Notes under the pieces: model-generated
What the model was told of the DNA's origin: nothing
What the model saw: the letters and a program-made list of their open reading frames with translations, nothing else
The model's database searches: none
Shown here: positions 28,601 to 53,456 of the stretch, piece by piece
Position numbering within the stretch: the first letter of the stretch is position 1
How the letters are laid out: each line of letters opens with the position of its first letter
From: a virus
Reading direction: 5' to 3' (one strand)
Length of the DNA: 64,000 nt
IMG/VR virus record: IMGVR_UViG_3300031227_000023
Location: 25,916 to 89,915 of that record
Position numbers and translations under genes: made by a program

Positions 28601-28646
28601 TGAAGCCACTCCTGTTATTCTGTCTTATTTCGCCAACTGCGTATCA

Positions 28647-35385: not shown

Positions 35386-38300
35386 TTACTTGTACGCGCC
35401 GGTGTTAATTGATCCCAGCACACGCGTGAAATGGTCAACGTCTTGCATCACCTTCCCCGCAGACTTCCCATCAAAATATTCCATGCCCATGGATGTCACT
35501 TCTGTTGCATCCAAATCCTTCACGCTTCCACCACGTGGCGTTTTCACAGTCCCTTCCCTGTAATACAACCTACCAACATAGTGGTCTGTGAATTCAGGAT
35601 TACCCCGTTCGACTTTCACAACAATTTCATTCAACTTATATGCTTTGTTTCTTGTCAAATAACGCAGCGGGGTTTCCCCTCCTACAAATCCATCAGCATC
35701 TACTTTGGCGCGCTGCCACAGGAACCACTGCCCATTCTTCAGTGAATCAGAATTGAGTTCATCAAAATGATGTCCATATTCGTGCAGGAACTTGCGCCGT
35801 ACTTCTTCCTTTGACCACTCCGCATATTTCCGAACACGCACGTTTTTTGTTCCAATTGAAATAAACGCACGTTCATCAACCCCCTGGCTTGCTATTGATT
35901 TTGCAGACTCATAGAACGCCCCGCTTTTTGTTGGATCAACATCAACCCTGACAGCAGGCAACCGGCCACGAACAACACCACGACCGTACCGCGTCACATA
36001 ATCATAAATCGCACACCCTTCTTCAATCCCATCACGAACAGGCTTTGGAATTTTTGACCATTGTGCATAAGCCCCGGCATCATCCAAAAACTGTGCTTTG
36101 ATCCTGCCAAACAGCCGGGCTTGTTCAGGTATCGTTTCAACATACGCAAGGGATTTTTCTGCAATCTCACCAGCAACCTTGTGGTGCGCGACACTATCTA
36201 GTGCAAGAGTTCCGGAGGATTCCTTTCTAATCAAATCCTTCAATACCCACTCCCCACGCTTTCTGATCTGATCCACCCTGCCACTTTTCCTTGCCGACCC
36301 CCAACGCGCATCAACAGCCGGTGGCCTTGTACTTGACAACGGGCCAAGCACTTCATCACCACGCAAGCCTTCTTCAGGAACCAACTGCCATGGCTGTTCA
36401 TGCGGCTTCAACGGTGCAGGTACAGCAGGCTTGGGCACAGCAGCGGCAGTCCTGGCAGCAGCCGCACCCCCTGCCCATGGACCCAACCCACCGGGCACCG
36501 CAGTCTGTATGGCCTTCTGATTGTAAATAACAGTGGTCCTGCATAGCGGGTGGTACGGTGGCAAACTCATGCCCAAATCACGCATTTCCTTCACGGTGGA
36601 ATACTGCGAAGCATACTTGCCCGCATCCCATGTTCCCGCACCCGGCTTTGTGACAGTCATGATACTGTTGAACTGCCCCTGTTTATTCATCACCCCCCAG
36701 TCAGCACCCCGCCTGCGCACCCATGGCATTTCAAATTTAATATCTTCAGGATCAGCCAAGTTGTCAGTTGACGTTTGGTGTTCATGCGCAACCTCAACAT
36801 CTATTACTTTACCATGGATGTACCGGCAATTATGAACAACAACCCCTTCTGCAATGTATGTTGGGTCATCTTCCACTTCAAGGTTGTACACGTAACATGC
36901 ACGCCGCACCTTGCGAACGGCAACAACCTTTTCTAGCCTAGTGCCCCTGCAATACTCTTCAACACTACGTTCTCCGGATTCCCTTGATTCAATTGCTCGC
37001 CCGTAATCCTGATCAGTTTCCACCCCATGCCTGCAATTGCTTGTTCTTTTCTTTCCGTCGCATCCTCCCTGAACCCTTCCCTGTGCCAATACTCCCCGTC
37101 CACCTCGATTGCGAGACCGTGCTCCGGTAGAAAGAAATCTACATTGAATCGGTCGACGGGCTTCTCTAGCTCGTAATTGATTCGATTCTTTTCCAACACT
37201 TCCGCAACGATTTCTTCCAACCCCGTTGCCCCCTTCCCAATCAAAAGGCATCTGCGCGAACAATGCTGCCTCTTGACCACTTCCGATTTCTTGATAACAA
37301 ACTTTTTCCCGCACTCCTCGCACGTTATCGTTTCCCTTTGATCCTTCCACCGGCATGCCCGTGAACACGTAGTGCGGGTTTTCCCGGAAAAAAATTCCAC
37401 TGGCTTTATTCTGAACTCCCCCCCACATACAACGCACCGCTTCACCAACAATGCCGGATTCAACCCCTTCCTTCCAGCTTCCACCCTGCACTGATCCGAA
37501 CAATGCTTCATCTGCCCCCGTTTCACATAACACTGCCTTGCCGTGAATGCCTTGCCGCACCATTGACAAACCATTTCCACATTGTTCATCCGATATTTGT
37601 TGTAACAATCCGTGCCGCAATACTGAGCCCTGTTCCCCACCGCTTGAAACGTCTTTCCGCAACCCTTGCATTTCTTCTCTATAGACAAGGCTGTCTCCTT
37701 TCCGCAATTCTCCAATAGGTCTCCATCCATCTGCGGTAAGGATACGATGTTTTTTTGTTGCAATCAAATGATTGCCGGACTGGAGTTGCACTTCAATCAA
37801 CTCTTCATCAACAAATCTTTTCGATACAGCCAACACGTGCCTCAACACCCCTGATCCCGTCACGACAACATCACCCGCATCAATGCTGTCTATACGTTTT
37901 TCCCCTAACTCTGTTTTTACTTTTGTTTCGCCAGAAAAACACCATTCTGTGGTTCGTTCATCCATCACCGCATAGGCAATTACCTCTGTAATGCCCGCTT
38001 CCATGAAGCCGTGCAACTGCGCCCGTGAACGGGAACGCGCAACCAAGTTGTGCGCCACCACCGTCCAATAATTCTTCATCTGCTGTTCATACCCGACACC
38101 AACCGCACTACGCAGGTTGTCCCCGATTTGGCCCGCACCCAACCCTTCACGCAAGCCCTGTTCAATGATCCCCCGTGACTTGTTGGCCATACTCATGGAC
38201 ACGCGCCCGGCCTGATTCCGTACATAAAAGTTCTGATCTTTGACCAACGCTTTGATGGCTTCAGTGTCCTGAAGGTTCAAGCGTGCAGATATCCCAAGGT

Positions 38301-38991
38301 CAGGGCCAATCTGCTTCTTCACTTCACCCATTACTTCACGTGCAGACGTTGACAGGCTGCTTGTAAATGATGCAGACACGGATGCCCACTTTGATGCCGG
38401 AACAAACACCGACACAGCAGACAATGCAGATTCACGCTGCGCCGCTGTCATCCCCTTCCAATTCCTGCCAAGCAGGCCAAGGATTCCACGAATATGCGCC
38501 TGCGTGGCAGGCTTTGACAGGTTGGCCAACTGCCTGCCCAAGCTGTTGGTAATTGCAAGATACCCTTCAGGCGTCAACGGGTTTGCGGCTTTCTCCAACC
38601 GGTACAACGCATGGGCAAGTTCATCACTGGCATCAATCGCGTTGATTGCACTCTGCAAGTTCCCGCAACACATTTCATGGTACTGCGCCACGTCTTCACA
38701 CAGCAGGCTGCCACCAATCACACCCTTCACCATGCACACCGTCACGGGGAACGCCCGTGCTTCACCAACAGCACTGTGCAAACGATCCTGCCCAACGCCT
38801 TCAGTGAACCTGCGCACCAACTGCCCCTGCCCATCAACCACTGCCATTCCGCTTGCCTGCGCAGTGATCCCGCCCACAATACCCTTGGCAATCAGTTCAT
38901 TTTGGAACCGGGCAGGAACAGACCCAACCACCCGCATCCCCTGCGCATCATGCTTGGCCAGCAAGTGCCCGCCAATCAGCACAGTTTTCAT
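35386..38991 (-). CDS. MuF-like head morphogenesis protein with intein and C-terminal zincin-like domain
   Basis: 1201-residue precursor, sharing ATGA with the portal. Residues ~150-350 are a helical MuF-type region with NLVARSRSRAQLHGFMEAGITEVIAYAVMDERTTEW. The intein occupies 351-721 and interrupts DERTTEW|CRYIHGKVIDV, the conserved D-x-R-T-x-x-C-x-x-x-x-G motif, so splicing is needed. Excision would leave ~830 residues. After SLPPYHPLCRTT the C-terminal part carries HEYGHH (1070-1075) in an alpha/beta context, matching the HExxH metallopeptidase signature. MuF proteins fused to C-terminal enzyme or toxin domains are known in other phages. Here the domain may be injected with DNA or may process head proteins. 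Confidence 0.85.
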   Translation of the reverse strand: MKTVLIGGHLLAKHDAQGMRVVGSVPARFQNELIAKGIVGGITAQASGMAVVDGQGQLVRRFTEGVGQDRLHSAVGEARAFPVTVCMVKGVIGGSLLCEDVAQYHEMCCGNLQSAINAIDASDELAHALYRLEKAANPLTPEGYLAITNSLGRQLANLSKPATQAHIRGILGLLGRNWKGMTAAQRESALSAVSVFVPASKWASVSASFTSSLSTSAREVMGEVKKQIGPDLGISARLNLQDTEAIKALVKDQNFYVRNQAGRVSMSMANKSRGIIEQGLREGLGAGQIGDNLRSAVGVGYEQQMKNYWTVVAHNLVARSRSRAQLHGFMEAGITEVIAYAVMDERTTEWCFSGETKVKTELGEKRIDSIDAGDVVVTGSGVLRHVLAVSKRFVDEELIEVQLQSGNHLIATKKHRILTADGWRPIGELRKGDSLVYREEMQGLRKDVSSGGEQGSVLRHGLLQQISDEQCGNGLSMVRQGIHGKAVLCETGADEALFGSVQGGSWKEGVESGIVGEAVRCMWGGVQNKASGIFFRENPHYVFTGMPVEGSKGNDNVRGVREKVCYQEIGSGQEAALFAQMPFDWEGGNGVGRNRCGSVGKESNQLRAREARRPIQCRFLSTGARSRNRGGRGVLAQGRVQGGCDGKKRTSNCRHGVETDQDYGRAIESRESGERSVEEYCRGTRLEKVVAVRKVRRACYVYNLEVEDDPTYIAEGVVVHNCRYIHGKVIDVEVAHEHQTSTDNLADPEDIKFEMPWVRRRGADWGVMNKQGQFNSIMTVTKPGAGTWDAGKYASQYSTVKEMRDLGMSLPPYHPLCRTTVIYNQKAIQTAVPGGLGPWAGGAAAARTAAAVPKPAVPAPLKPHEQPWQLVPEEGLRGDEVLGPLSSTRPPAVDARWGSARKSGRVDQIRKRGEWVLKDLIRKESSGTLALDSVAHHKVAGEIAEKSLAYVETIPEQARLFGRIKAQFLDDAGAYAQWSKIPKPVRDGIEEGCAIYDYVTRYGRGVVRGRLPAVRVDVDPTKSGAFYESAKSIASQGVDERAFISIGTKNVRVRKYAEWSKEEVRRKFLHEYGHHFDELNSDSLKNGQWFLWQRAKVDADGFVGGETPLRYLTRNKAYKLNEIVVKVERGNPEFTDHYVGRLYYREGTVKTPRGGSVKDLDATEVTSMGMEYFDGKSAGKVMQDVDHFTRVLGSINTGAYK
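36829..37941 (-). other. Intein within MuF gene (371 residues)
   Basis: Starts at Cys (TGT 37941-37939) with CFSGETKVKTELGEKRI (block A). Block B is GNHLIATKKHRILTADGWRP. The C-terminal blocks are ACYVYNLEVEDDPTYIAEGVVVHN, ending His-Asn before a +1 Cys (TGC 36828-36826). All splicing residues are present: Cys1, B-block T-x-x-H (TKKH), terminal HN and Cys+1. The central ~210 residues in this frame (for example RNRCGSVGKESNQLRAREARRP) do not look like a domain, because that DNA encodes an endonuclease in the +1 frame. Confidence 0.9.
36933..37688 (-). CDS. Homing endonuclease (Vsr/DUF559-like PD-(D/E)XK, zinc-finger array) nested out of frame in the intein
   Basis: 251 residues from TTG 37688, seven bases after a perfect AAGGAG. 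An ATG at 37730 in the same frame lacks a ribosome site. The frame is +1 relative to the MuF/intein ORF, and the stop falls just before the C-terminal intein blocks. Four Cys-x-x-Cys fingers (CKGCGKTF, CQWCGKAF, CVVCGGEF, CEECGKKF, each with a later C-x3-C pair) precede a nuclease core: RFNVDFFLPEHGLAIEVDGEYWH and GWKLIRITGEQL. That core is typical of the Vsr-like (EDxHD/DUF559) fold found in homing enzymes of inteins and introns. Confidence 0.85.
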   Translation of the reverse strand: MSIEKKCKGCGKTFQAVGNRAQYCGTDCYNKYRMNNVEMVCQWCGKAFTARQCYVKRGQMKHCSDQCRVEAGRKGLNPALLVKRCVVCGGEFRIKPVEFFSGKTRTTCSRACRWKDQRETITCEECGKKFVIKKSEVVKRQHCSRRCLLIGKGATGLEEIVAEVLEKNRINYELEKPVDRFNVDFFLPEHGLAIEVDGEYWHREGFREDATERKEQAIAGMGWKLIRITGEQLNQGNPENVVLKSIAGALG

Positions 38992-40880
38992 TTCACACCC
39001 AACTCTGCACGCTGTTGGTCAAAGTCAATTTCAATCTGCTGTTGCACACCGGCCTGATGCTGCACCTTCATCAGATGCGCCAGCAGAACACGCACTGCCC
39101 CGTTCACATCCAAATCTGCCGCCTGTGTCACGACCTGTCTGCTTGCAGCACCTTCACCTTCTCCCCCGTCTTCTGCCCCATCCTGCCCGCCCTGCTGCAC
39201 AGAACCGTCACCCTGTGCATCATCAGGTTCCACGTTCGGGTCTTCCCAGAAAGCAAATCCCTGTTGGGTCAAGGCCAACGGCTGCTGTGTCCACAATTCC
39301 ATGATCTTGTCAAAGTCCCTATTGAACACACCGGATACAATTTCCCGTGCTTCAGCAGGCGTCAAGATCCCCTGCTGCACCATCAGTGCCACCAATTTCC
39401 CAAGCACTTCCGGGTCTTGTGTGGTGGGTGACAATGAACGGAACTTCACCAACCTGATACCCAACTCATTGACCAACAACGTTTTGTTCAGGAACGCATC
39501 AAAGGCTTCCCGTTCGGGCTGAAACACTTGCTCCTCAGCTTGCCGCATTGCCGCACTTGCTGTGGCCTTGTTAAAATCTTTTGTGTCACCGATCACAATG
39601 GGTGGCAACCGGAATGCGCTGCGGATCTTGTCTGTGGCCTGTAAGTCATATTCAAGAAACAGCCCATCCTTTTCCTGTGCATGCGTCAACGGCTGAATTT
39701 CAATCTTGACCACCCCCGGCTTTTCACCCGGCACACTGAACGGTTCCCCTTCCAGCACCAAAACACTCTGGAAACTTTCACTGCCCTTCAGCTTCTTAAT
39801 ATGGTCTTTGATATTCTTGACGGTTTCGGCAGTGGCCCGCCCACCATGAACCATCACTGCCAATGCAGGCACGGTATTATTGTCTGCATATGCCCGGTTG
39901 ACGCCATCAAACTTGCGCTGCCCAACCACGGATTCACTTGTGCCGATCCAACGCGGCTGCCCGTAACTTGAACCCGCTGCGTACAGCTTAAAATGAATCA
40001 CTTCCGTGGCAGGCAAATCACCATCGGGCTTGTCCTGATCAGCATCAAAGGCAGCCATGTCAACATACACCTTGCCGGTTTTCCTGCTGATCACGCGGGT
40101 GTCGCCAAATTCTTTGAAATAGACCAATTTCCCATCACCCAAGGCTTCCACGAACGTGCGGAACTTCTTGTTGATTTTCCTGTCTTTCCACGTCAACGGG
40201 GAAACCTGCACCCGTTCTTCTATCTGCACCGGTGCCGCAATCTTCGGACGCAGCCGCATGTTTTCCGCAGGCAGGTGATTGACACGCCTTGGCTTGTTGT
40301 CTTTGGTGCGCAGGATTTCCCAATACCCATTGCCGCAGGTTTCCAAGTCAATCCGAGTCTTCCTGCGCAGGGCAATGAACGTTCCTTCACACAGACTGTC
40401 AAACCAAGTTTTTAAGGCAAACCGTTCAACCGCTTCCCTGCGCCGCAACCCATCCATCACCACCAACACTTCTTCATCAGTGGGCACGGTTGCTTCCGGC
40501 ACGTCATTATCCAACGCCAACAGCGGGTCATCCGTATCACCAAGGTACTGTTCAAGCACCATGGCTTGCCGCACGGCTTCAATGTCTTCATCCCCTGCCA
40601 ACTCATAAATGGACTCGATCCGATTCCCAAACCCATCAATGTTGGTGGCGTATGCTTCAAAGCAGCGTGGCAGGGTGGGGGAATGATCCCCCCAAAAAAA
40701 CATATGGGACAACTTCACCGGTGGCGTGATCACCCCGGCACCGCCAAACACCTTGGCATCTTCTTCTTCCGGGTCAATGTATGCCGTTGTCAACCAATCG
40801 GCAACCGCGTCTGCGGCATCTTCCTTCTGCACGCTGATCACATGCAGGGTTCCGTTTTTCCGTGTATCTTCAGCGGGCAT
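38988..40880 (-). CDS. Portal protein (PBSX family)
   Basis: 630 residues from ATG 40880 (GGAG eight bases upstream; a TTG at 40904 is less likely). Early HSPTLPRCFEAYATNIDGFG is the PBSX-family portal signature. Later segments NNTVPALAVMVHGG, LEGEPFSVPGEKPGVVKIEIQPLTHAQEKDGLFLEYD and IRSAFRLPPIVIGDTKDFNKATA match the clip, stem and wing regions. The Gln/Gly-rich C-terminus is flexible. It forms the dodecameric DNA gate and is coupled to the MuF gene by ATGA. Confidence 0.9.
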   Translation of the reverse strand: MPAEDTRKNGTLHVISVQKEDAADAVADWLTTAYIDPEEEDAKVFGGAGVITPPVKLSHMFFWGDHSPTLPRCFEAYATNIDGFGNRIESIYELAGDEDIEAVRQAMVLEQYLGDTDDPLLALDNDVPEATVPTDEEVLVVMDGLRRREAVERFALKTWFDSLCEGTFIALRRKTRIDLETCGNGYWEILRTKDNKPRRVNHLPAENMRLRPKIAAPVQIEERVQVSPLTWKDRKINKKFRTFVEALGDGKLVYFKEFGDTRVISRKTGKVYVDMAAFDADQDKPDGDLPATEVIHFKLYAAGSSYGQPRWIGTSESVVGQRKFDGVNRAYADNNTVPALAVMVHGGRATAETVKNIKDHIKKLKGSESFQSVLVLEGEPFSVPGEKPGVVKIEIQPLTHAQEKDGLFLEYDLQATDKIRSAFRLPPIVIGDTKDFNKATASAAMRQAEEQVFQPEREAFDAFLNKTLLVNELGIRLVKFRSLSPTTQDPEVLGKLVALMVQQGILTPAEAREIVSGVFNRDFDKIMELWTQQPLALTQQGFAFWEDPNVEPDDAQGDGSVQQGGQDGAEDGGEGEGAASRQVVTQAADLDVNGAVRVLLAHLMKVQHQAGVQQQIEIDFDQQRAELGVK

Positions 40881-40947
40881 GGCACTTGCTCCATTCGGTT
40901 GCAATGATCACCACCCCGATGATAAAGCCCTACCCCGCACCGGTCAA

Positions 40948-41454
40948 TTATTCGGAATCACTTGCAGGCAGCAAGCCCATAGCACGCACGTCAACCAACA
41001 CCCTGTGTAATTCGCCAAGCAACTTCCCTTCTTCACAGTCCACCGGACACGTTGCCGGGAACCGGCCTGCAAGCCTTGCTAACACGGAAGCCATCCGTTT
41101 TGCTATATCGTACACTTCACCTGTTGCTTTTTCCTGATCGGCAAGCAGCCGCGTGAACGTGTCCACATGCGTCTGTATTTGCGCCACAATCTTCTCATCA
41201 AACACTTCAACACCTTCATTCTCCGGGCAGCACTCACAGTTCCCATGCAGGCACGCTTCACACACCCGGTTGTACTCCATAGAACCGTGATTGACAAATC
41301 TCATGCCCCGATTGGTGGCCAGCACCTTCAAGTCATCCGAATCATCACTATGAACTTCCACAATCCTATCACGCACCGATTCACGCAACGCAGGAAGAAA
41401 CACACGGAACACCACCGCAGCCACAGCAACCCTGAGCAGCTTGCTTCTCATCAT
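40948..41454 (-). CDS. Small Cys-containing protein with hydrophobic N-terminus
   Basis: 168 residues from ATG 41454, one base after the previous stop; the frame to 41646 lies in upstream genes. The first ~20 residues (LLRVAVAAVVFRVFLPAL) are hydrophobic and may be a membrane anchor. A Cys cluster (CEACLHGNCECC) follows at ~residue 65. The rest is helical. No family recognised. A 67-bp gap separates it from the portal gene and shows nothing notable. Confidence 0.6.
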   Translation of the reverse strand: MMRSKLLRVAVAAVVFRVFLPALRESVRDRIVEVHSDDSDDLKVLATNRGMRFVNHGSMEYNRVCEACLHGNCECCPENEGVEVFDEKIVAQIQTHVDTFTRLLADQEKATGEVYDIAKRMASVLARLAGRFPATCPVDCEEGKLLGELHRVLVDVRAMGLLPASDSE

Positions 41455-41455
41455 G

Positions 41456-41731
41456 TCATTCCCCGCAATCCATCTGGACACCGCCATACGCTCCATTAAC
41501 GAACGCAACGCACTGCCGATAATTCCCATACCTGTTGGGGCACATGCAGTTGTAAACATGCCTGAAGTCTTCCATGTCCAGCACCACGCAATCACACTGC
41601 CCGTCAACCCGCCCGGATTCGTTCCGCTGCACATGCTCTGCCGCAACCTGATCAGCCGGGCACCCCACGTTCAGCACCACAAGCCCGATCACCACGAACG
41701 CCAACACAAGCAACCACTTATTCACCATCAT
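41456..41731 (-). CDS. Small secreted or membrane-anchored Cys-rich protein
   Basis: 91 residues, sharing ATGA with the upstream stop. Lys-6 is followed by a hydrophobic core (WLLVLAFVVIGLVVLNVGC), which is either an N-terminal membrane anchor or a signal peptide. The Cys after NVG is lipobox-like but has Asn at -3, so lipidation is doubtful. The exported part has six Cys (CDCVVLD, YNCMCPN). Possibly a superinfection-exclusion or envelope protein; no family recognised. Confidence 0.6.
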   Translation of the reverse strand: MMVNKWLLVLAFVVIGLVVLNVGCPADQVAAEHVQRNESGRVDGQCDCVVLDMEDFRHVYNCMCPNRYGNYRQCVAFVNGAYGGVQMDCGE

Positions 41732-41964
41732 GATTCATTCCCTTCGCTTTGATCTTGATCACCATCACACTTTGCCATGCAGCTTGCACACCATACATGA
41801 CCCAATATTCCGTTCGTCCACCCTTCAGGAAACGGGATGCTTGCAACCACGTCCATGCTCAATTCACCAACCCTGTGCCCCTTAATCGACACATCACCGC
41901 ACACCTGCTTCAAAACCCCACACCCCGCGCACCGGTAATTCCACACCCGTGACAGTTCAGCCAT
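41728..41964 (-). CDS. Small zinc-ribbon-like protein
   Basis: 78 residues from ATG 41964. Two Cys pairs (YRCAGCGVLKQVCGD and WCASCMAKC) fit a treble or ribbon zinc site. The overlap of its stop with the next gene (ATGA) and the AAGGTGG site support it as real. Function unknown. Confidence 0.6.
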   Translation of the reverse strand: MAELSRVWNYRCAGCGVLKQVCGDVSIKGHRVGELSMDVVASIPFPEGWTNGILGHVWCASCMAKCDGDQDQSEGNES

Positions 41965-41978
41965 CACCACCCCACCTT

Positions 41979-42203
41979 TCACCACTTTGGCAAATACCAA
42001 TGCTCAAGTTTATCCACGTTATCAAGCACGCGCTGCCTGTCTGCATCAACCGTTTCCCCGGCCTTGCACTTCTGTTCAAGGATTTGCAGTTGCAGCTTGG
42101 CTAATTCCACCTTGGCAAGCACCGTTTGCGCAGCAGCCAATTCCTTGGCAGCACTAACCAACGTCTTCCCATCATTGTAATCAAGCCTGAATGCATCCGA
42201 CAT
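41979..42203 (-). CDS. Small helical protein
   Basis: 74 residues starting at ATG 42203, which overlaps the upstream TGA (TGATG). The sequence is an extended helix with coiled-coil heptads (LAAAQTVLAKVELAKLQLQILEQK). No family recognised. Confidence 0.6.
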   Translation of the reverse strand: MSDAFRLDYNDGKTLVSAAKELAAAQTVLAKVELAKLQLQILEQKCKAGETVDADRQRVLDNVDKLEHWYLPKW

Positions 42204-42628
42204 CACACACACCCGTTGTAAATTTTGTTGATCATGTCACCGCACCATTCAACCCGGTGCCGGTGGATCTTCTCTTGCACCGGATCAATGCTGCCCGGCA
42301 CGCGGCACGCCCTTTCACCCTTCAACTCTTCTTCCCGGATAGCACTGAACACCCCTGCCAGCCGCGCCCGTTCATCCATCACGCCCCGCGCATGCGCTTC
42401 TTCATGGCCTTCCACCACGTCGCCATCCTGATACCCCATGATCGCACTCGGCACCCCGTCAACCCACGGTCCACTCGACTGCACAGGCGCATCAACCAAA
42501 TCCTGATCTTCCCCATGCGCCTTCACCTTGGCTGCCGCATCAATCAAAGCCTGTTCAATCGCACCCACCAACGTCTTCCCCGGATACGCTTGCCGCAACG
42601 GTTCTGTCTTGATTATTACCCTGAACAT
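42203..42628 (-). CDS. Hypothetical protein
   Basis: 141 residues with GAAGGGGTGAAGTGCC before the ATG. Early part TLVGAIEQALIDAAAKVKAHGEDQDLVDAP; C-terminal DPVQEKIHRHRVEWCGDMINKIYNGCV. Mixed alpha/beta, no family recognised; coupled to the next gene by TGATG. Confidence 0.6.
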   Translation of the reverse strand: MFRVIIKTEPLRQAYPGKTLVGAIEQALIDAAAKVKAHGEDQDLVDAPVQSSGPWVDGVPSAIMGYQDGDVVEGHEEAHARGVMDERARLAGVFSAIREEELKGERACRVPGSIDPVQEKIHRHRVEWCGDMINKIYNGCV

Positions 42629-42707
42629 GGCACTTCACCCCTTCCTGTTTTTCACTGAAAAGAAACCATTCATGTCCGGGAGTTTTCGCACCCGGTTCAT
42701 TTCCCAT
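42555..42707 (-). CDS. Possible 50-residue small protein
   Basis: ATG 42707 with a strong GGAAGAAGGAACA site. The ORF fills the ~100-bp gap before 42628 and then overlaps that gene by 74 bases in another frame. Begins MGNEPGAKTPGHEWFLF. Coding status is uncertain because of the overlap. Confidence 0.35.
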   Translation of the reverse strand: MGNEPGAKTPGHEWFLFSEKQEGVKCHVQGNNQDRTVAASVSGEDVGGCD

Positions 42708-42729
42708 TGTTCCTTCTTCCTTCATTCAT

Positions 42730-43092
42730 TCAATAACAACCTGCGGCTTGCCGTTCCTTCACAACACGTGCGGACAACAGGCCACCACATTTCTTGCTGC
42801 ACGTCTTCACCTTGTACAGACCCGGTTCAAACATCTCCCCGCATACAGGGCACTTCGCTACGGTAATTCCATACTGCCGCCTATCCGTGGCACGGAAGCA
42901 TTCTTCCAGCTTCCTTTCAACACCAGGGAGATACTTTTTATAATACACCACAGCGATACCGCGCAAACACCCCGGACAATCCATGGCTTCGCTCCGGTTG
43001 ATGCACTGCACCGCTGTCAGTTCCCGGCCTGTATACTTACACTGCACCACCGACACCACAGGCCGGGGTTCCAATAAGCTATTCACCCTCAT
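42730..43092 (-). CDS. Small protein with C-terminal zinc finger
   Basis: 120 residues from ATG 43092, after AGGGGTG; upstream ATGs in the same frame lie inside the previous gene. Cys pairs occur at MDCPGCLRG and, near the end, AKCPVCGEMFEPGLYKVKTCSKKC, a C-x2-C...C-x3-C finger like those in phage-encoded zinc proteins and in the homing endonuclease of this window. Function unknown. Confidence 0.62.
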   Translation of the reverse strand: MRVNSLLEPRPVVSVVQCKYTGRELTAVQCINRSEAMDCPGCLRGIAVVYYKKYLPGVERKLEECFRATDRRQYGITVAKCPVCGEMFEPGLYKVKTCSKKCGGLLSARVVKERQAAGCY

Positions 43093-43576
43093 CTTCTTCA
43101 CCCCTTTCATCAACAAGCACCGGCCCGGACGGCTGCCCACCGGGAAGAAAATTCCCACGGTGCGGTTCAGTCAACCCACGCCACCCTTCAATATTCTTAA
43201 AAGGCACCGGCCCTTCAACCAACCCATCCATATCAACGATGAACTCTTTAATGTCCAATTCCACCAACGGGGAACGCATCAACGCTTCCGTGGTCTGCAT
43301 CATTATCACAAGACCCCTGCGCCACTGTTCAAATGCCTTCACCACATACGCAACAGATTCCCCTTCACCTTCAGGGAACTGGAAGCACGGGCCATGGTGC
43401 CCGTTCCTTGTCAGCACAAACGCCCAATCAACCTGTGCATGTTCATCAGGCTTCCACCCCTTACCAAGCCCAACATAAAGCCGGTGCCGTTCGCACTCTG
43501 TCACCCACATGCTGCCAAACAAATTCACCCACCCCCGCCAATGCATGCCCTGCAATTCATGAACATCAACCAACAT
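43079..43576 (-). CDS. Hypothetical protein
   Basis: 165 residues from ATG 43576 (TGATG overlap). A region rich in Trp and His (GMHWRGWVNLFGSMWVTECERHRLYVGLG, DWAFVLTRNGHHGPCFQFP) suggests an alpha/beta domain. The C-terminus is acidic and Gly-rich. No family recognised. Confidence 0.6.
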   Translation of the reverse strand: MLVDVHELQGMHWRGWVNLFGSMWVTECERHRLYVGLGKGWKPDEHAQVDWAFVLTRNGHHGPCFQFPEGEGESVAYVVKAFEQWRRGLVIMMQTTEALMRSPLVELDIKEFIVDMDGLVEGPVPFKNIEGWRGLTEPHRGNFLPGGQPSGPVLVDERGEEDEGE

Positions 43577-43782
43577 CACTTGCCCCTTTCATGCGCACCG
43601 CTTTCAAGCAGCGTGGCCATCTGATCAAGCACAACCCACCGATCCCCCGCCCTGATCGAATCCAGCTTTTTCCCGGCAGCCCGCGCCGCAACAGCCTTCT
43701 TCTTCCACGTGGCAGCAACACCGCGCACCACCTGCACGCAGGCTTCCCGCTCGTCATCAATTCCATCTTCAAACGTTTGCAT
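43576..43782 (-). CDS. Small helical basic protein
   Basis: 68 residues from ATG 43782 (TAATG overlap with the upstream stop). Helical (REACVQVVRGVAATWKKKAVAARAAGKKLDSIRAG). The longer frame to 43824 lies in the upstream gene. Function unknown. Confidence 0.6.
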   Translation of the reverse strand: MQTFEDGIDDEREACVQVVRGVAATWKKKAVAARAAGKKLDSIRAGDRWVVLDQMATLLESGAHERGK

Positions 43783-44192
43783 TATTCGGTTACACTCCCA
43801 CCCTTCGCCACCGTCCTGAACCACGGCCAGAAATGTTCTATAACCCCAGAATCAGCGGACGGACCAAACCACACCCACGCAACCAAAGGCTTCACTGCAC
43901 AGTGCTTGCCTTCTTCCGTGGTCAGAACATAATCGCCGGGGCACACAATCCCGTTCCCCCCGTTCACCCCACACCGCTGATCAATCCAACCATGTTCATG
44001 GTATGTCTGCCCGCACATCGGACACAGGGCAGTGCCCGGTGCATCAGGGTGCCCACGGAACCTGCGCACAACCAACCCTTCAGGATCAGGGATGCTGCCA
44101 ACCCGCATTTCCCCACCACCCCCGCCTTCACGATCATCGGGGTGGTCGCCATTCTTGAACCACCTACAGAACCGGATCGTTTTGCTTCCCAT
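43782..44192 (-). CDS. Small zinc-binding protein
   Basis: 136 residues from ATG 44192. Contains ALCPMCGQTYHEHGWIDQRCG and a later GIVCPGDYV, a plausible zinc site, within a Trp-rich alpha/beta protein. No family recognised. Confidence 0.6.
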   Translation of the reverse strand: MGSKTIRFCRWFKNGDHPDDREGGGGGEMRVGSIPDPEGLVVRRFRGHPDAPGTALCPMCGQTYHEHGWIDQRCGVNGGNGIVCPGDYVLTTEEGKHCAVKPLVAWVWFGPSADSGVIEHFWPWFRTVAKGGSVTE

Positions 44193-44205
44193 CACCCACC
44201 ACCTT

Positions 44206-44652
44206 TCAAATGATCAAGCCCATTTTTATAAACTCTTCACGCACCGCGCCGGTATCAATGCCCATGATTGCATCATGCAAGTCTTGTATTGAACGCACGT
44301 TTTCAGGCAGCCCGCACCACTTCTTCACTTGCCGCAGCCGGTGGACCATATCAATGGCAACACACGTTCCCATCACATGGACACGGGGCAGTTCCTTCAA
44401 CCCCTTCCCCAACACGAACCCAAGTGCAAGCTGTGTTAGCTTATACACATCACGCACAGCAGGGGCATCACCATCCCTGAAGCCCGGCAGCAAATCAAAC
44501 TGTTTCTGCATGTCTGCTTCAGACCGGCACGCCCGCATGTTCAATACACTGATAATGGGAAGGCCACCAATGCTTTCCCCGCGCACCGCACGCCTGAACG
44601 CTGCCCGCAACTCGTCTTCAGTATCCATGGCCACCGCTTCTTCTTCCGACAT
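44206..44652 (-). CDS. Hypothetical helical protein
   Basis: 148 residues from ATG 44652 after GAAAGGGGTG; an ATG at 44673 in the same frame overlaps that site. Segments LRAAFRRAVRGES and VYKLTQLALGFVLGKGLKELPRVHVMGTCVAIDMVHRLRQVKKW are helical. No family recognised. Confidence 0.58.
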   Translation of the reverse strand: MSEEEAVAMDTEDELRAAFRRAVRGESIGGLPIISVLNMRACRSEADMQKQFDLLPGFRDGDAPAVRDVYKLTQLALGFVLGKGLKELPRVHVMGTCVAIDMVHRLRQVKKWCGLPENVRSIQDLHDAIMGIDTGAVREEFIKMGLII

Positions 44653-44665
44653 CACAGCACCCCTT

Positions 44666-44767
44666 TCATCCATGCAACCAAAGGAACCAACACCCCGAAC
44701 ACCACCACATTCCGTTCACGATCAGGTTCATCGAACCCCCACAGCACGGGCAGAATTTCAACACCAT
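44666..44767 (-). CDS. 33-residue zinc-ribbon micro-protein
   Basis: ATG 44767 follows AAGGG by eight bases and lies 5 bases after the previous stop. The product MVLKFCPCCGGSM...WWCSGCWFLWLHG has two CxxC pairs 17-20 residues apart, a minimal zinc ribbon. It fills the otherwise empty gap between 44652 and 44772. Confidence 0.6.
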   Translation of the reverse strand: MVLKFCPCCGGSMNLIVNGMWWCSGCWFLWLHG

Positions 44768-44771
44768 GGCT

Positions 44772-45101
44772 TCAACCCTTCACCGAACGGTTCAACTCTG
44801 CATTTTCCGCAAGTGCTCGATACCGACCACGCACATCATCCAACCTCAACATGTCAGCAAGCCGCACCACTTCCCAATAAAACCCCGCCGCCCATCCCCA
44901 CAGGTACGGTGCCAATTCAACAGCAAGCATTGCTTCATCAGCCTGCAATTTCCCACGGAATGCCGCAGTTGTCATTTCCCACAACAACTTTTCTTCAACA
45001 CTGCCCGTGATCAATCGACCCCTCGAAGGAATATTCTGCTTGCGCACCTTTGCCATAGAATCAAAACACCGCACAGCTTTAGCAACACTTGATTCACCCA
45101 T
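44772..45101 (-). CDS. Small helical protein
   Basis: 109 residues with an ideal GAAAGGAG site. Mostly helical (VEEKLLWEMTTAAFRGKLQADEAMLAVELAPYLWGWAAGF). No family recognised; possibly a small DNA-metabolism or host-takeover protein, unproven. Confidence 0.6.
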   Translation of the reverse strand: MGESSVAKAVRCFDSMAKVRKQNIPSRGRLITGSVEEKLLWEMTTAAFRGKLQADEAMLAVELAPYLWGWAAGFYWEVVRLADMLRLDDVRGRYRALAENAELNRSVKG

Positions 45102-45104
45102 GAT

Positions 45105-45455
45105 TCAACTCCTTTCAGTCCTGCGCTTCTGCGCCTTCAGGTTTCGCACTTGCCGCTTCAACTCTGCAATCTCTTCACCGTGCCGTGTCCGCTGTGCCTT
45201 GAACCACGCAAGGTGCTGTTCGTAGTATTCCCAGTGGCGTGCGAACTCCACCACCACATCGAACGGGTCAAGGAACGCGCCGCACGTCTTGCATTCAACA
45301 ACGCGCTGTTCCACGTTCACATTCTTCAGCTTGTGCTTGCACTGCTTGTGAAGACCCTGAACACGGAACAGTATTTCTTCCCGCTGCTCCGATCCAACAG
45401 AAGGAAAGAACACAACCCGATCCCCCAACCCATCATCTTTGCTTTCATCACCCAT
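45105..45455 (-). CDS. Zinc-finger plus coiled-coil small protein
   Basis: 116 residues from ATG 45455 (a GTG at 45464 is possible). Two Cys pairs (QCKHKLKNVNVEQRVVECKTCGAF) are followed by a long basic coiled coil (WFKAQRTRHGEEIAELKRQVRNLKAQKRR). Nucleic-acid binding is plausible. No named family. Confidence 0.6.
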   Translation of the reverse strand: MGDESKDDGLGDRVVFFPSVGSEQREEILFRVQGLHKQCKHKLKNVNVEQRVVECKTCGAFLDPFDVVVEFARHWEYYEQHLAWFKAQRTRHGEEIAELKRQVRNLKAQKRRTERS

Positions 45456-45476
45456 GACTTGCACCCCGCAATCAGT

Positions 45477-45656
45477 TCACTTCATAGTGCGGCACCCACC
45501 AACAATCAACGACTTGACCTTTTTTCCATCACCAACGCACCGACTAGAAAGACATTCATCGTTCCGGTAATGTGGAATTGAATGCGCACACTCATCCACA
45601 CCCTGCACCTTGCACTCTGCCGTGCCCGCCTTCGGGCAAACAATTTTAGCACCCAT
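45477..45656 (-). CDS. 59-residue Cys-rich protein
   Basis: ATG 45656 after GGTGGTGCGG; stop TGA 45479-45477. Six Cys (IVCPKAG, AECKVQG, DECAHS, NDECLSSRC, GGCRTMK) in 59 residues. The spacing hints at a zinc-bound small domain. It is similar in character to the Cys-rich gene just upstream (45679-45906). Confidence 0.5.
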   Translation of the reverse strand: MGAKIVCPKAGTAECKVQGVDECAHSIPHYRNDECLSSRCVGDGKKVKSLIVGGCRTMK

Positions 45657-45678
45657 ACCGCACCACCGTTTCTTCTAG

Positions 45679-45906
45679 CTATTCAGCCACAGGAACACAA
45701 CTACATAAAACATTCGGGTGGACAAGTTCACACACTGTTTCTTCAGAACAACACCAATCAGAGCGGACAAGTTCATCATGAGGATTTGCATGATAGCAAA
45801 CTGAATGACGCCCACCATCCGTCATGTAATCACAGCGTTCGGACTGCCTTGCATGATCACAAACGACCTTACCCGCCTTGCTGCATGTAGTCTTGTCTTC
45901 ACCCAT
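45679..45906 (-). CDS. Cys/His-rich small protein
   Basis: 75 residues from the second ATG (45906), which has proper spacing to AAGGAG. Nine Cys and several His (TTCSKAGKVVCDHARQSERC, SVCYHANPHDEL, DWCCSEETVC, VLCSC). Probably a metal-binding protein; no family recognised. Confidence 0.55.
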   Translation of the reverse strand: MGEDKTTCSKAGKVVCDHARQSERCDYMTDGGRHSVCYHANPHDELVRSDWCCSEETVCELVHPNVLCSCVPVAE

Positions 45907-45971
45907 GGCCATTGCTCCTTCAATTGATCCAACCGAACACACCCGTACCATACGCACTGCACAGCCACCTG

Positions 45972-47210
45972 TCACCCGTTGTCAACCTGCACCGATCCAT
46001 CTTCAATCACAATTCCAACCTTGCCGGTCTCATCAACCACTTCCACCCACACCTGATACCCACCGGAACCTGCCATCTCCTCTATAATCTCCATTGATTT
46101 GGAATCCAACAAGCTGCCATCAGTGATGAGGATCACCTTCAACTCTGGGTTTGCCGCCATGGCAATGGCAAGGGAAACACGCAACTGTTCTGCACTGCTA
46201 GCCTGATCCAAGGGAAGCCCGTTGTAAGTCACTTCACCATCACCAAAACTCAACCCATCAACAGGGAAGGTTGCGGATTCCAGGGCATCAGCCTTGCGCT
46301 TATCAATCGCCTTCATCTTGTCTGTCAGTGTACCGGACAACGCCACGGCTTTCTCATGCTCTGCCTTGACCCGTTCGTGATCATCGTACATTGCAGCAAG
46401 CCTGTTCGTTTCCCCGGCATTGGCAATCTTTGCCCTGATGGAATCGACATCCTTGTCAACCCTGGAAGTAACCTCATCCTGTGCTTTACGCACCGCTTCT
46501 TCCACATCACTTTTCTCTGCACTCAGATCCTTGATCTTTTTATTTATCTCAATGATCTGATCCAACTTGACTTTCAGGTAATCCCCGAACCGCTTGTTTT
46601 CTTCGTTGTATTCCCGCCCCGCATCCAATTCCTTCATCAACTCTGCGGTGTCCACCCGCACCGGAACCACATCGCAATCGTCAAGATTGCTTTCATCCCT
46701 CTTAACACGCAACCGCTTGACATCCCGGTTGGTATCAGCACGCTGGCTTTCAGCAAACGCCCGCTGCCCGTTCAGCGTGTCAATGTCAACGTCCAACGTC
46801 ACCATGGATTGCAACGTATCGAACTGCGCACGCTTGTCCTGCCTGATGAACTCGGTTGGATCAAAACTCAACCCGTTGAACAGCTTGTTAAGCATTGCCT
46901 GCGGCTTTTTGAATACCGATAAAAGCCCTTTTGACTCCACCGTAAGCACACCGCCGCCTGCCTCCGTAAACGTTCGCTCCACCACCATGTCGCCAAGGTC
47001 AAGCTTAATCTTGCCCTTCTTTTCACCCTTGCGCAACGGCACATCAGGAATGTTTTTTGCGCCGCCAATCGCACACATGATGGAATCAAGCACACTCGAT
47101 TTGCCAACCCCGTTCGCGCCGGTGATCACAACGGTGCTCCGATCCCCCGGAAAGATTTGAATGGCCTTTAATCGCTTGACGTTTTCCACACAAAGTTCAA
47201 TGATTTTCAT
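45972..47210 (-). CDS. SbcC/RecF/SMC-like ATPase
   Basis: 412 residues, shorter than typical SbcC/Rad50. Walker A GANGVGKS is at 31-38, an ABC signature-like SSAEQLRVSLAIAMA lies near residue 350, and Walker B/D-loop-like LKVILITDGSLLD follows. The central ~160 residues form a charged coiled coil (RLRVKRDESN, EINKKIKDLSAEKSDVEEAVRKAQDE). It fits phage ATPases of the recombination/repair nuclease class (T4 gp46-like). No gp47/SbcD nuclease partner is visible nearby, so it may act with a partner elsewhere. Confidence 0.8.
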   Translation of the reverse strand: MKIIELCVENVKRLKAIQIFPGDRSTVVITGANGVGKSSVLDSIMCAIGGAKNIPDVPLRKGEKKGKIKLDLGDMVVERTFTEAGGGVLTVESKGLLSVFKKPQAMLNKLFNGLSFDPTEFIRQDKRAQFDTLQSMVTLDVDIDTLNGQRAFAESQRADTNRDVKRLRVKRDESNLDDCDVVPVRVDTAELMKELDAGREYNEENKRFGDYLKVKLDQIIEINKKIKDLSAEKSDVEEAVRKAQDEVTSRVDKDVDSIRAKIANAGETNRLAAMYDDHERVKAEHEKAVALSGTLTDKMKAIDKRKADALESATFPVDGLSFGDGEVTYNGLPLDQASSAEQLRVSLAIAMAANPELKVILITDGSLLDSKSMEIIEEMAGSGGYQVWVEVVDETGKVGIVIEDGSVQVDNG

Positions 47211-47293
47211 CGTTCACCCTTTCGATTGGTCCAACAGTACAATACGAACCATACACACCCCCCATCCACACTGCAAGAAAATTCTTCCACCTG
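47211..47293 (-). other. Short gap between terL and the SbcC-like gene
   Basis: 83 bases. It can encode a 27-residue GTG-start frame whose stop overlaps the next ATG (ATGA), but it lacks a well-spaced ribosome site, so I do not call a gene. The gap also holds the AAAGGGTGAACG ribosome site for the SbcC-like gene. Confidence 0.5.
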
Positions 47294-48835
47294 TTAATCC
47301 AGACTGTACGCCCGCACGCCACCCCTGTCTTGCTGATCCTTGACACCAAAGAAGACATCAGTGCCCCACAGCACACCCTGCGTGAACGCATCACGCATAT
47401 CGTTGCCCTGCTTTATGGCATCCAACAACTGCGTGATCAGGCACCCCCGGCTGCCGTCCACCACATCAGGCTTCAACGTGTCGCTGAACAGCACGTTGCC
47501 CCGCTGCATGTATGGCGTCACCATCTTTGTCCGCTCATCCTTGGACACGTGCGGCTTGAACCCATGCGCCCTAATCCAAGGTTCTTCCCTGTGCAGGAAC
47601 TTCAACAGGCTTTCTTGATAGCCAATGGTTTCAATCACGACTTCAGCACCCAACCGCTTGGCATCACCCTTGATACTATCAACCTGTTCGGGGAAGTCCA
47701 TGCGCTTGCGCCACGCATCCAACACCACCATTTTGCGCTGCCGCGAATCCAATGCAATCAACACGCAGGCTGTGTAATTCGCATCATCACCCTTGCTGCT
47801 TGCAAGGTCATATGAAAGCAAGAATATCTTGTTGGCCCTGCCCATCTTGGCAAGGTTCACATACTTGATCCACTCTTCACGCACCAACGTTTCATCGTCT
47901 GCACTTGGCAGAAGTTGGAACGCACGGGCATATTCCACTGCCCCAATATCAACGTATTTTTCCCGCAGGATTCGTTCGGGCCAACGCTCTGGCCAAATCG
48001 AACCAAACAGCCCGTCAACGGGGAATGATAAGTGTTTATAGTTTGGGTTTGTTTTGATGTCGGCAGACAGATCAGCCCGGTGCCATGGCGTGAACAGATA
48101 CCAGATGCGCCCGCTTGGCTCAAGTGTGTTCATCCAATCCGATTTCCACGCCCTGATAACTTCCGGCCTTAACTTTGGTTGCGTCAACGCATTCCTGCGC
48201 CCCACCGGGTCATCACCGAACAGCAGATCAGCACGGCTGCCCGTACCCGGTGACAGCACACCACGCCCTTCCAATGACGGGTCACGCATGATCTTGCGCC
48301 GGTGCAGGGTCAACCTTGCCTTGCTCCAATCCCCCTCATCAGCAGCACGCAGGTGCGGGAACACCTTCTGCACCCGGTGGTTGTGCGTGATCAACTGCCG
48401 CACCTCCCACACCCTATCACGGGCACGCGGGTCTGATTCTCCAATCACCTTCACGCGCAAATCAGGGTTGTGCCCAAACTCCCACACCAACCGATCAACA
48501 CCCTGTGAAGTCTTGCCGCCATCACGAATTACTTCAACAGCCACCTTCTGATGCTTGCCAAGTGCAGCTTGCATTTCTTCATGAAACCAAGCCTGCCTCA
48601 TAAAATCAGGATCATCCCCATTGATATATTCAATAAATGCGTTCGGGTCTGTGCGGGCTTCACGCTTGCGGATTTCATCCACAATCTTTGTGGCACTGAC
48701 CAACTCTGCCCGTGAATATTTGTGCAGATCCTTGTCAGGGATGGTGGTTAAATAAGAACGGGGTGGCCGCCAACGCTTGGCAACCTGCCCCATCCCATTG
48801 CTTGGAATTCGTTTGCCCAATGTACCTTCACACAC
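47294..48835 (-). CDS. terL: Terminase large subunit
   Basis: Up to 513 residues. The GTG at 48835 overlaps the terS stop; an internal ATG at 48793 (MGQVAKRW) would give 499 residues. Walker A-like VEVIRDGGKTSQ is at ~101-111 and Walker B ADLLFGDD at 202-209, followed by the coupling region TPWHRADLS. The RNase H-like nuclease motif SYDLASSKGDDANYT is at ~341-355, with VVIETIGYQESL after it. It packages DNA into the prohead together with the small subunit encoded just upstream. Confidence 0.9.
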   Translation of the reverse strand: MCEGTLGKRIPSNGMGQVAKRWRPPRSYLTTIPDKDLHKYSRAELVSATKIVDEIRKREARTDPNAFIEYINGDDPDFMRQAWFHEEMQAALGKHQKVAVEVIRDGGKTSQGVDRLVWEFGHNPDLRVKVIGESDPRARDRVWEVRQLITHNHRVQKVFPHLRAADEGDWSKARLTLHRRKIMRDPSLEGRGVLSPGTGSRADLLFGDDPVGRRNALTQPKLRPEVIRAWKSDWMNTLEPSGRIWYLFTPWHRADLSADIKTNPNYKHLSFPVDGLFGSIWPERWPERILREKYVDIGAVEYARAFQLLPSADDETLVREEWIKYVNLAKMGRANKIFLLSYDLASSKGDDANYTACVLIALDSRQRKMVVLDAWRKRMDFPEQVDSIKGDAKRLGAEVVIETIGYQESLLKFLHREEPWIRAHGFKPHVSKDERTKMVTPYMQRGNVLFSDTLKPDVVDGSRGCLITQLLDAIKQGNDMRDAFTQGVLWGTDVFFGVKDQQDRGGVRAYSLD

Positions 48836-49403
48836 CGATTCGTTCGGGCACCTTGCCCGTGGTCAACTCCTCCAACAACTCTTCATCCGTGTACGCTTCA
48901 AAGCCCTCCATCTGAATTGCTTCACGGTGATCAGGGCCACCCATTGCAAACGATTCAGCCCGGATCAATGTGCAAATCTGCCGCACGTACCGTTCACCCA
49001 CACGATCCAAAGCCTTGTAATCATCATCACCAATGGCCTTCAGCCGCACACGGATCTTGCGCTTCATGGTGCCGATCAAGCCCAAGGAATCATTCATTGC
49101 TGCGCTGTACTTCACCACAATTTCCGCAGCCGCTTCACGGGCAAGTTCCTGTTCCCGCGCAATATCCGCTTCTTCCTTCAAGACCCGTAGGGCAGGCCAC
49201 CCCTTCACCTTATTCCCCTTGTTGATCAGCCTGCTGATTGTGGCACTATTCCGCCCAACCTCAACAGCAACCTTCTCAGCCTGCATCCCTCCCACATAAA
49301 GCACCTTTATTTGTTCCCATTCTTCCTGCTGCACCCTGCGGTTGGTAATCTTTTTGACGGGCTTTTTGGTGGGCTTCTTGGCCTGCTTCTTCTTCTTTGC
49401 CAT
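48828..49403 (-). CDS. terS: Terminase small subunit
   Basis: 191 residues. The N-terminus is basic (KKKKQAKKPTKKPVKK). A helix-turn-helix follows (QEEWEQIKVLYVGGMQAEKVAVEVGRNSATISRLINKG), then a helical oligomerisation region. Position directly before terL and the HTH support the call. It would recognise the packaging site, plausibly in the adjacent intergenic region. Confidence 0.82.
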   Translation of the reverse strand: MAKKKKQAKKPTKKPVKKITNRRVQQEEWEQIKVLYVGGMQAEKVAVEVGRNSATISRLINKGNKVKGWPALRVLKEEADIAREQELAREAAAEIVVKYSAAMNDSLGLIGTMKRKIRVRLKAIGDDDYKALDRVGERYVRQICTLIRAESFAMGGPDHREAIQMEGFEAYTDEELLEELTTGKVPERIGV

Positions 49404-52965: not shown

Positions 52966-53456
52966 TTCTCAGGCTTCCATGAGTTTGAATATTGATGATC
53001 GCGAAAGGCATGGGCAATCCCAAGTTGCTGCTTCAACCGCATAAATTCCTCCGGCTCCATCCCCAAGTTTTCACAAATCTCCTCATCTACAACACCGAGA
53101 TCTTCAAGCTGCACAACCAGCTCACTCATTCCCTCGACCTGGTGCATACCCTTGATCCGATTCATCAGCACGGTAAGCTGCACCGCGTCGTGATATGGGA
53201 TATCCATTACGACCGCAGACACCTCTTCCGCACCCATGCGCTTGAGCACTTCTAGCCTGTGATATCCATCCACAATCCGATACTTTTCCTTATCCGCATC
53301 CCACACCACGATCAGCGGAAAAAGAAACCCGTACTTCCCAATGCACTCCTGGAGCAAATTCATTTCCGTCGTCGGCATCCTGTTCGGGTTGTAGTCGTTT
53401 GCTATCACATCCACAAGCTTGATTACCCGCGATTCTCTTATAACAATTGATCCCAT
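52962..53456 (-). CDS. ibrB: IbrB-like ParB/sulfiredoxin-domain protein
   Basis: 164 residues with GAGGG before the ATG. ParB-type domain with IVDGYHRLEVLKRMG (DGYHR 63-67), preceded by NDYNPNRM and followed by helices. IbrB proteins are encoded next to IbrA, exactly as here (IbrA overlaps its start by 19 bases). The pair is known from E. coli prophage-like regions as regulators of ibp genes. Biochemical function remains unclear. Confidence 0.8.
   Translation of the reverse strand: MGSIVIRESRVIKLVDVIANDYNPNRMPTTEMNLLQECIGKYGFLFPLIVVWDADKEKYRIVDGYHRLEVLKRMGAEEVSAVVMDIPYHDAVQLTVLMNRIKGMHQVEGMSELVVQLEDLGVVDEEICENLGMEPEEFMRLKQQLGIAHAFRDHQYSNSWKPEK

Follow-up and report, generated by a model that had tools for sequence, protein, structure and literature searches.

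A segment of small, in part cysteine-rich ORFs between an SMC/RecF-type ATPase gene and the portal gene of a contractile-tailed phage

The segment described here lies between the genes for the terminase large subunit (TerL) and the portal protein of a virus represented in IMG/VR by record IMGVR_UViG_3300031227_000023. The stretch analysed (the window) comprises 64,000 nucleotides, bases 25916-89915 of the 89,915-base record, and all coordinates below are window positions. A tail sheath (phrog_23, phrog_17610) and a tape measure protein were identified in the window and mark the virus as a contractile-tailed phage. Nearly all of the open reading frames (ORFs) chosen by coding potential are on the minus strand. 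Along it, small genes are followed by a putative terminase small subunit (TerS), TerL, an ATPase of the SMC/RecF type, a cluster of small ORFs, the portal protein, and head and tail genes. TerL (513 residues, 47294-48835, minus strand) matched phrog_38 with E 1.2e-55 and the portal protein (638 residues, 38988-40904, minus strand) matched Phage_portal with E 8e-22. A first-pass annotation had noted a cluster of small Cys-rich proteins between terminase and portal. This describes the portal side correctly, while on the TerL side the direct neighbour is the ATPase gene, with TerL beyond it.

Between the ATPase and portal genes, 16 minus-strand ORFs of 33-177 residues (P1-P16) tile positions 40948-45906. 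Of the 5067 bases available they occupy 4865, neighbouring ORFs being spaced by -74 to +65 bases, and 15 of them are entirely within 41456-45906, the range considered in the first-pass annotation. Codon statistics gave 29-84 bits for 11 ORFs, negative values for P1, P5 and P11, and weak ones (7-8 bits) for P2 and P14. The score probably underrates Cys-rich proteins, because Cys is rare in the training genes.

The residues of the cluster are 4.4 % Cys. In the structural region the value is 0.77 % (27 genes), and in 29 further genes it is 2.1 %. These groups were drawn by position; the 29 include TerS, TerL and the ATPase, and one of the 27 (24710-28609, minus strand), inside the structural gene region, encodes a 1299-residue protein with glycosyltransferase group 1 domains. 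At least five Cys occur in eight of the 16 ORFs (nine in P1, six in P2, five in P5, six in P7, ten in P10, six in P14 and seven each in P15 and P16), and the CxxC motif occurs in six (P3, P5, P7, P10, P14 and P16), five of them within 41456-45906. The earlier count of at least eight small proteins with CxxC pairs is thus too high. Residue shuffling gave 4.2 CxxC motifs where 10 were observed (P 0.007), but for proteins containing at least one the difference (6 observed, 3.4 after shuffling) was not significant (P 0.07). When codon positions were shuffled, 0.8 CxxC motifs and 34 Cys were expected and 10 and 73 observed, values reached in 0 of 1000 shuffles for each. The two other frames on the coding strand, however, carry 6.7 and 8.0 % Cys and the frames of the opposite strand 3.0-4.4 %, compared to 4.4 % in frame. 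The controls disagree, and the raw Cys content of the cluster is equivocal. The G-rich coding strand can yield short Cys-rich ORFs here, so that Cys-richness alone does not count as evidence for a gene. Elsewhere in the window, a 372-residue protein (61178-62296, minus strand) with 25 Cys exceeds every cluster ORF in Cys number; it had no Pfam match at E 0.001.

The ATPase (412 residues, 45972-47210, minus strand) belongs to phrog_1499, the profile of which matched over its full length (residues 1-408, E 8.4e-84), and it also matched AAA_23 (E 4e-10). Its Walker A motif is GANGVGKSS, with the G, N, G, K and S columns invariant in a nine-sequence alignment in which it was 29-40 % identical to its phrog_1499 kin. 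A tblastn search gave 31-41 % identity to ATPases of eight phages whose gene neighbourhoods were viewed; several matched records bear 'MRE11' as their deposited label. Exonuclease, RecT or SSB genes were near the relative in six of the eight, namely Arthrobacter phages Tiff81 and ArV1, Gordonia phage TillyBobJoe, Erythrobacter phage ZS04, Caulobacter phage Sansa and Glutamicibacter phage BIM BV-113. In Corynebacterium phage PSonyx the exonuclease gene is farther away, and in Microcystis phage MaeS the neighbours are almost all unnamed. Unlike the ATPase described here, these relatives had neither TerL nor portal annotated in flanks of 3-6 kb, the MaeS flanks being mostly unnamed. Matches to defence-type ATPases were also obtained (PADLOC mad3, E 2e-14), but they were weaker than that to phrog_1499 (E 8e-84). 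No match to the ATPase was found in 20 related records, which are partial and were searched without a positive control.

Two of the small proteins could be assigned to families. P3 (116 residues, 45105-45455) is a member of phrog_1621, with E 8.3e-18 over residues 6-114 and the conserved C, H, C, C set. In an alignment of P3 with sequences from 44 of 80 loci (45 sequences), C39, C55, C58 and F65 are invariant and H41 is conserved in at least 90 %. P3 is predicted to form a zinc ribbon (C39, H41, C55, C58) followed by a 52-residue helix; the structural model (pLDDT 79) consists of a beta hairpin and then a helix at residues 64-115. TFIIB is one of several zinc ribbons among its best PDB matches, although none is significant (best E 1.1). 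P3 shares with phrog_1621 the CxH...CxxC set, a DPFD motif and the C-terminal helix region, but it is just 21-31 % identical to family members, and its neighbours are packaging genes, not genes of replication or of Ead/Ea22 type. phrog_1621 is a family of unknown function, and 20 records matched were mostly from enterobacterial phages. The P3 relative is near replication genes in Providencia phage PSTNGR2lys, beside an Ead/Ea22-like gene in Enterobacter phage Tyrion, and among unnamed genes in Cronobacter phage JK004. In Tyrion a PAPS-reductase gene is also nearby; the present window has overlapping ParB_N and PAPS-reductase genes at 52962-54517 (minus strand). P3 also matched PADLOC LmuB (E 7.6e-5, residues 32-114), mostly over the helix. 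A Rad50-hook reading, suggested by the weak ASRP and LmuB matches, was rejected, as the conserved C, H, C, C set is followed by a single helix.

P7 (136 residues, 43782-44192) has more relatives. A tblastn search found 80 phage records at E ≤1; among the 40 listed, 32 were at E ≤1e-3, with a best value of 2e-14. These relatives include proteins of Rhodococcus phage Peregrin, Cobetia phage Carin1, Shewanella phage 3/49 and Dickeya phage JA29 and, more distantly (E 6e-5), PhiPA3 gp001; the passage on gp001 available from PMC11849849 concerns phage Churi. A scan of IMG/VR viral sequences gave 298 relatives, of which 80 were kept. In an alignment of P7 with 57 of these 80 (58 sequences), the invariant columns include W11, N14, G15, D16, H17, P18, D20, C60, H67, G68, C84 and P85, and C57 is at least 90 % conserved. 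A CCHC zinc site formed by C57, C60, H67 and C84 is therefore plausible, being predicted from conserved Cys and His. Relatives 39-44 % identical to P7 matched phrog_419, phrog_4502 and phrog_1810, and two of them weakly matched Pfam PGDYG (PF14083), with a best E of 5e-4 that is below the Pfam cut-off. A direct scan of P7 itself gave no match to the PGDYG families of Pfam or PHROG. Its membership of this group is established through relatives only, P7 matching Shewanella 3/49 gp15 with E 2e-9 and gp15 matching phrog_419 with E 4e-32. The PGD and YPCKP-type motif region of P7 reads CPGDYVLTTEEGKHCAVKP, in which the PGD part is retained and the C-terminal part has diverged.

About 120 residues of the P7 relatives align to about 84 positions of the PHROG profiles. 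A search with the Shewanella relative found 473 records; among the 60 listed, eight were near full length and 52 were shorter by 8-40 residues. The part missing from the shorter matches would be the Cys/His stretch, apparently an insert carried by P7 and its near relatives, which would make P7 a zinc-bearing variant of a large PGDYG family. The predicted structure of P7 had a mean pLDDT of 73.5, and its matches among BFVD viral models include proteins named PGDYG. Against the PDB neither the fold (best E 0.72) nor the sequence profile (nothing better than E 0.37) gave a significant match, and a single search for 'PGDYG' in the literature available returned no paper.

The genomic contexts of P7 relatives vary. 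In Carin1 the order is terminase, gp48 (the P7 relative), gp47 and portal, and in Shewanella 3/49 it is TerL, gp15 (the P7 relative) and portal. The ChewyVIII relative, gp5, follows TerS at a distance of four genes. Altogether 11 annotated contexts were viewed, four of which came via the search with the Shewanella relative and not P7 itself: two are between TerL and portal, one is near TerS and eight are elsewhere, in arrays of unnamed genes, close to genes for thymidylate synthase or dihydrofolate reductase, within a lysis cassette, or two genes past a capsid gene. Among viral records, the order TerL, P7 relative, portal was found in G031; the relative directly follows TerL in loci L193 and L215 and is at the portal start in L198. 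Terminase_6N was present in 16 records among 50 of the 80 kept loci, on the same strand and within about 7 kb of the P7 relative in nine of the 16; this count is uncontrolled and, with some of the 50 (L157, L215) already known to show TerL, was set aside. Each of the portal families PF04860 and PF05133 was seen in three of the 50.

The remaining ORFs, all on the minus strand, are more difficult to place. P1 (75 residues, 45679-45906) contains nine Cys without CxxC and has AAGGAG 8 bases before its ATG but a negative codon score. P2 (59 residues, 45477-45656) has six Cys in a CxHxxPHx5Cx4C arrangement and a weak codon score. It is possible that P1 is a diverged copy of P2, as their local alignment score was reached by only 9 of 2000 shuffles. 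Small bacterial and phage proteins with a P2-like CxHxxPH pattern are known, and none was found by the searches here: tblastn of P2 in phage records gave just two hits, at E about 10, and a pattern search among 44,640 ORFs gave only two matches, both unrelated-looking. P5 (33 residues, 44666-44767) has the pattern CPCC-x13-CSGC of a mini zinc ribbon and a negative codon score; its match to the Lar-like restriction-alleviation family phrog_6422 (E 0.18) did not place it there. The 33-residue zinc ribbon and 59-residue six-Cys protein singled out in the first-pass annotation are accordingly present as ORFs, the latter without CxxC, and their codon scores are negative and weak, respectively.

P10 (126 residues, 42730-43110) has ten Cys, two CxxC motifs and a CPVC-x13-CSKKC finger, with a codon score of 30 bits. 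It matched phrog_1271, an HNH endonuclease family, with E 8.5e-4 over residues 23-109. HNH proteins occur next to terminase genes, and P10 resembles them by this weak match, but it contains no His and cannot hold an HNH active site, so that the HNH reading was rejected. P14 (78 residues, 41728-41964) contains CAGC and CASC and has a weak codon score. It resembles an 83-residue CxxC ORF located between TerL and portal in the related record G006, a pair spotted by eye before being tested; one of 2000 shuffles reached its score, and phmmer gave E 0.16 among 44,640 ORFs. P15 (91 residues, 41456-41731; 35 bits) has seven Cys and an N-terminal membrane or export segment with a hydropathy of 2.66 at residues 6-24, and P16 (177 residues, 40948-41481; 84 bits) has seven Cys and two CxxC motifs. 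P4 (109 residues, 44772-45101; 56 bits) is preceded by AAGGAG before its ATG and had no family match or relative in the searches made. P6 (148 residues, or 155 from an earlier ATG at 44673; 44206-44652; 74 bits) had no relatives in a scan of viral sequences. The others with good codon scores are P8 (68 residues with one Cys, 43576-43782; 40 bits), which overlaps P7 by one base, P9 (165 residues, 43079-43576; 80 bits), P12 (141 residues, 42203-42628; 78 bits) and P13 (74 residues, or 77 from a GTG at 42212; 41979-42203; 49 bits). P11 (56 residues, 42555-42725), with a codon score of -1.3 and a 74-base overlap with P12, is probably not a gene.

Scans of viral contigs with single proteins (TerL, P6 and the ATPase) found no close kin of the cluster. 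Relatives of the phage came only from the portal and sheath scans, the sheath giving 29 loci and the portal profile at least 562 relatives, of which the best 80 were kept. Among 20 sheath-bearing relatives the portal was found in eight and TerL in four, but these records may be fragments. The sheaths of IMG/VR contigs L013, L014 and L015 are 99-100 % identical to that of this phage, and neither L013 nor L015, the two that were searched, had a portal or TerL match. Of 90 loci with a portal gene, some of them with only short sequence ahead of it, 26 gave TerL with the TerL profile. Four near-duplicates (L042, L071, L073 and L079) and L123, whose TerL is encoded on the opposite strand, were excluded. 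In the remaining 21 relatives the gap between TerL and portal was -78 to 4496 bases, with a median of 371, compared to 6389 bases here (40905-47293). In the 94.8-kb relative G015 (loci L048-L050), TerL is 34-35 % identical to that of this phage and is about 34 kb from the portal and on the opposite strand, a separation which is unusual for a packaging module. The gap thus differs in length among relatives, and TerL and portal are not always linked; describing the surroundings as a conserved module, as had been done before, was too strong.

P1-P16 were also compared with the ORFs in the gaps or before the portal genes of relatives, with the region before the portal of eight further loci added by hand. 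No convincing match was found in 1232 pairs, the best Z of 5.1 being about what chance would give by our estimate. The P14 pair is outside these 1232, as the longest-ORF rule hid the 83-residue ORF of G006 under a longer overlapping frame, and for the same reason the CxxC count of zero for the relatives is too low. Together with the varying gap, this supports the expectation that related phages would differ in content at this place. ORFs with export signals before the portal occurred in eight of 59 loci, a trend too weak to use. As far as the collections searched are concerned, the whole segment has no close sequence relative, but it appears to be of a known kind. Arrays of small phage genes often lack close relatives.

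We consider it rather likely that the region is an accessory, non-structural (moron-like) segment in a variable slot between TerL and portal, with products acting on nucleic acids or host proteins. The same-strand tiling, the variable gap, the unlinking of TerL and portal in G015 and the occurrence of the ATPase family in recombination modules all point in this direction, as do the conserved Cys and His residues of P3 and P7, the kinship of both with widespread phage families of unknown function, and the varied contexts of P7. The segment would start with the recombination-type ATPase gene, followed by 11 well-supported and up to five doubtful small genes as one unit, and would be read through with the neighbouring genes. 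The ATPase may serve DNA recombination or repair. The small proteins would fold round zinc, to judge from conserved Cys and His alone, and within the infected cell those of zinc type might bind to nucleic acid or to proteins of the host. P15 could act in the envelope, and the cluster proteins would be made before or beside the late genes. There are precedents for small zinc proteins in phages. In the passages available, Mu Com is described as a zinc finger activator of the translation of mom, by which the phage DNA is protected from restriction (PMC6483171), and Bacillus phage G as having about 35 stand-alone copies of a zinc ribbon, for which transcription-factor or DNA-binding roles were proposed (PMC7824862). 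The segment described here has in common with phage G the presence of several small proteins of zinc-ribbon type in one phage, but its proteins are mutually unlike, save for the possible likeness of P1 and P2.

Several points weigh against reading the segment as accessory. The cluster is known from its sequence, and the completeness of the 89,915-base source record is not stated. Most of the cluster ORFs had no relatives in the searches run here, so that function is argued from a few, and with TerL found in 26 of 90 loci the gap statistic covers a minority. Promoter-like minus-strand sites precede the putative TerS, P1 and portal genes, but nine sites were found in all when 5.4 were expected, and they therefore give weak support.

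An anti-defence island, in which several of the small zinc proteins would block restriction or abortive systems of the host, had been suggested in the first-pass annotation together with host takeover. The Mu Com precedent (PMC6483171, as far as the passages available go) and the variable gap agree with this, but P3 and P7 belong to families of unknown function, the Lar-like match of P5 had an E value of only 0.18, and eight of the nine small ORFs (of 16) submitted to PADLOC, which covers defence and not counter-defence proteins, had no match, the exception being that of P3 to LmuB (E 7.6e-5). None of the nine could be assigned to a known defence protein, and the searches made gave no likeness to a known counter-defence protein. 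PMC11984713 was consulted for a counter-defence gene next to the portal, and the passages available from it give no gene location. We regard an anti-defence island as unlikely. Still less probable is a packaging role in which P7, possibly along with P14, would assist TerL or portal as a zinc-bearing helper retained in their neighbourhood. The relatives located between TerL and portal in Carin1, Shewanella 3/49 and G031, those just after TerL in L193 and L215 or at the portal start in L198, and the resemblance of P14 to the ORF in the G006 gap would fit such a helper. However, eight of 11 contexts are neither between TerL and portal nor near TerS, no P7 relative was found in the compared stretches of the relatives of this phage, and Carin1 gp48 is not among the six proteins 'structurally identified and validated' of the 18 coding sequences viewed (half of the record). 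The 11 annotated contexts, once viewed, made it appear unlikely that P7 is dedicated to packaging.

The same Carin1 observation bears on virion proteomics, which had been named in the first-pass annotation as what could overturn an anti-defence or host-takeover role; it fits a protein outside the virion, for one gene of one phage. That the ORFs encode minor virion or head-assembly proteins has hardly any probability in our view. The position before the portal would suit such proteins, and loci L054, L060, L072 and L087 carry, directly before the portal, a protein of 95-110 residues with an SxDGxxW-like stretch recognized by eye, but the Cys content of the cluster (4.4 %) is unlike that of the structural region (0.77 %) and the 1232 pairs included no convincing match to the pre-portal ORFs of relatives. 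It is about as improbable as the packaging helper that the cluster is partly an artefact, with P1, P2, P5, P11 and perhaps P14 not being genes and the Cys content an effect of the G-rich strand in any frame. The off-frame Cys contents (6.7 and 8.0 %) speak for this, as do the negative or weak codon scores of these five ORFs and the lack of a family or convincing sequence relative for any of them in the searches here. On the other hand, P1 has its AAGGAG and shows a likeness to P2 that 9 of 2000 shuffles reached, the ORF in G006 may be a relative of P14, the excess of CxxC survives codon-position shuffling, and removing P1, P2 and P5 would leave holes of 0.5 kb and 0.1 kb in the tiling.

In the surroundings, the putative TerS is a helix-turn-helix protein of 191 residues (48828-49403, minus strand), named from its position before TerL and from matches that are all weak (phrog_517, E 7e-5; Pfam HTH_38, E 0.009). 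The head gene after the portal (35386-38991, minus strand) holds an intein at residues ~351-721 (Intein_splicing, E 1e-11; Hint_2, E 2e-8); in four relatives the matches stop at this site and restart beyond it, the insert being absent. In L054 the TerL gene (3082-5631, plus strand) encodes 849 residues with, by eye, an intein-like Cys start after the Walker A lysine, and long TerL ORFs were also found in L080 (922 residues) and L105 (856 residues). The portal relatives of highest identity in bacterial genomes (39-41 %; L223-L228 and L274) are from Myxococcales, Deltaproteobacteria and unplaced Proteobacteria, with one from Halanaerobiales at 39 %, and give a hint of the host group of the lineage.

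In this lineage, the space between TerL and portal may be a slot in which accessory genes land repeatedly, with zinc-bearing PGDYG proteins as recurring tenants across unrelated phages; we put this forward tentatively, with more doubt than the accessory character of the segment itself. In the present phage the slot is held by small genes, and it was shown to be variable in relatives. Two of the small proteins, P3 and P7, now have names and relatives, and the likely genes have been separated from doubtful ORFs. P7-type relatives occur in named, isolated phages (Carin1, Shewanella 3/49, Peregrin and PhiPA3), and the role of these proteins can thus be tested by gene deletion. Should the slot prove recurrent, phage proteins with effects on the host or on packaging could be sought there.

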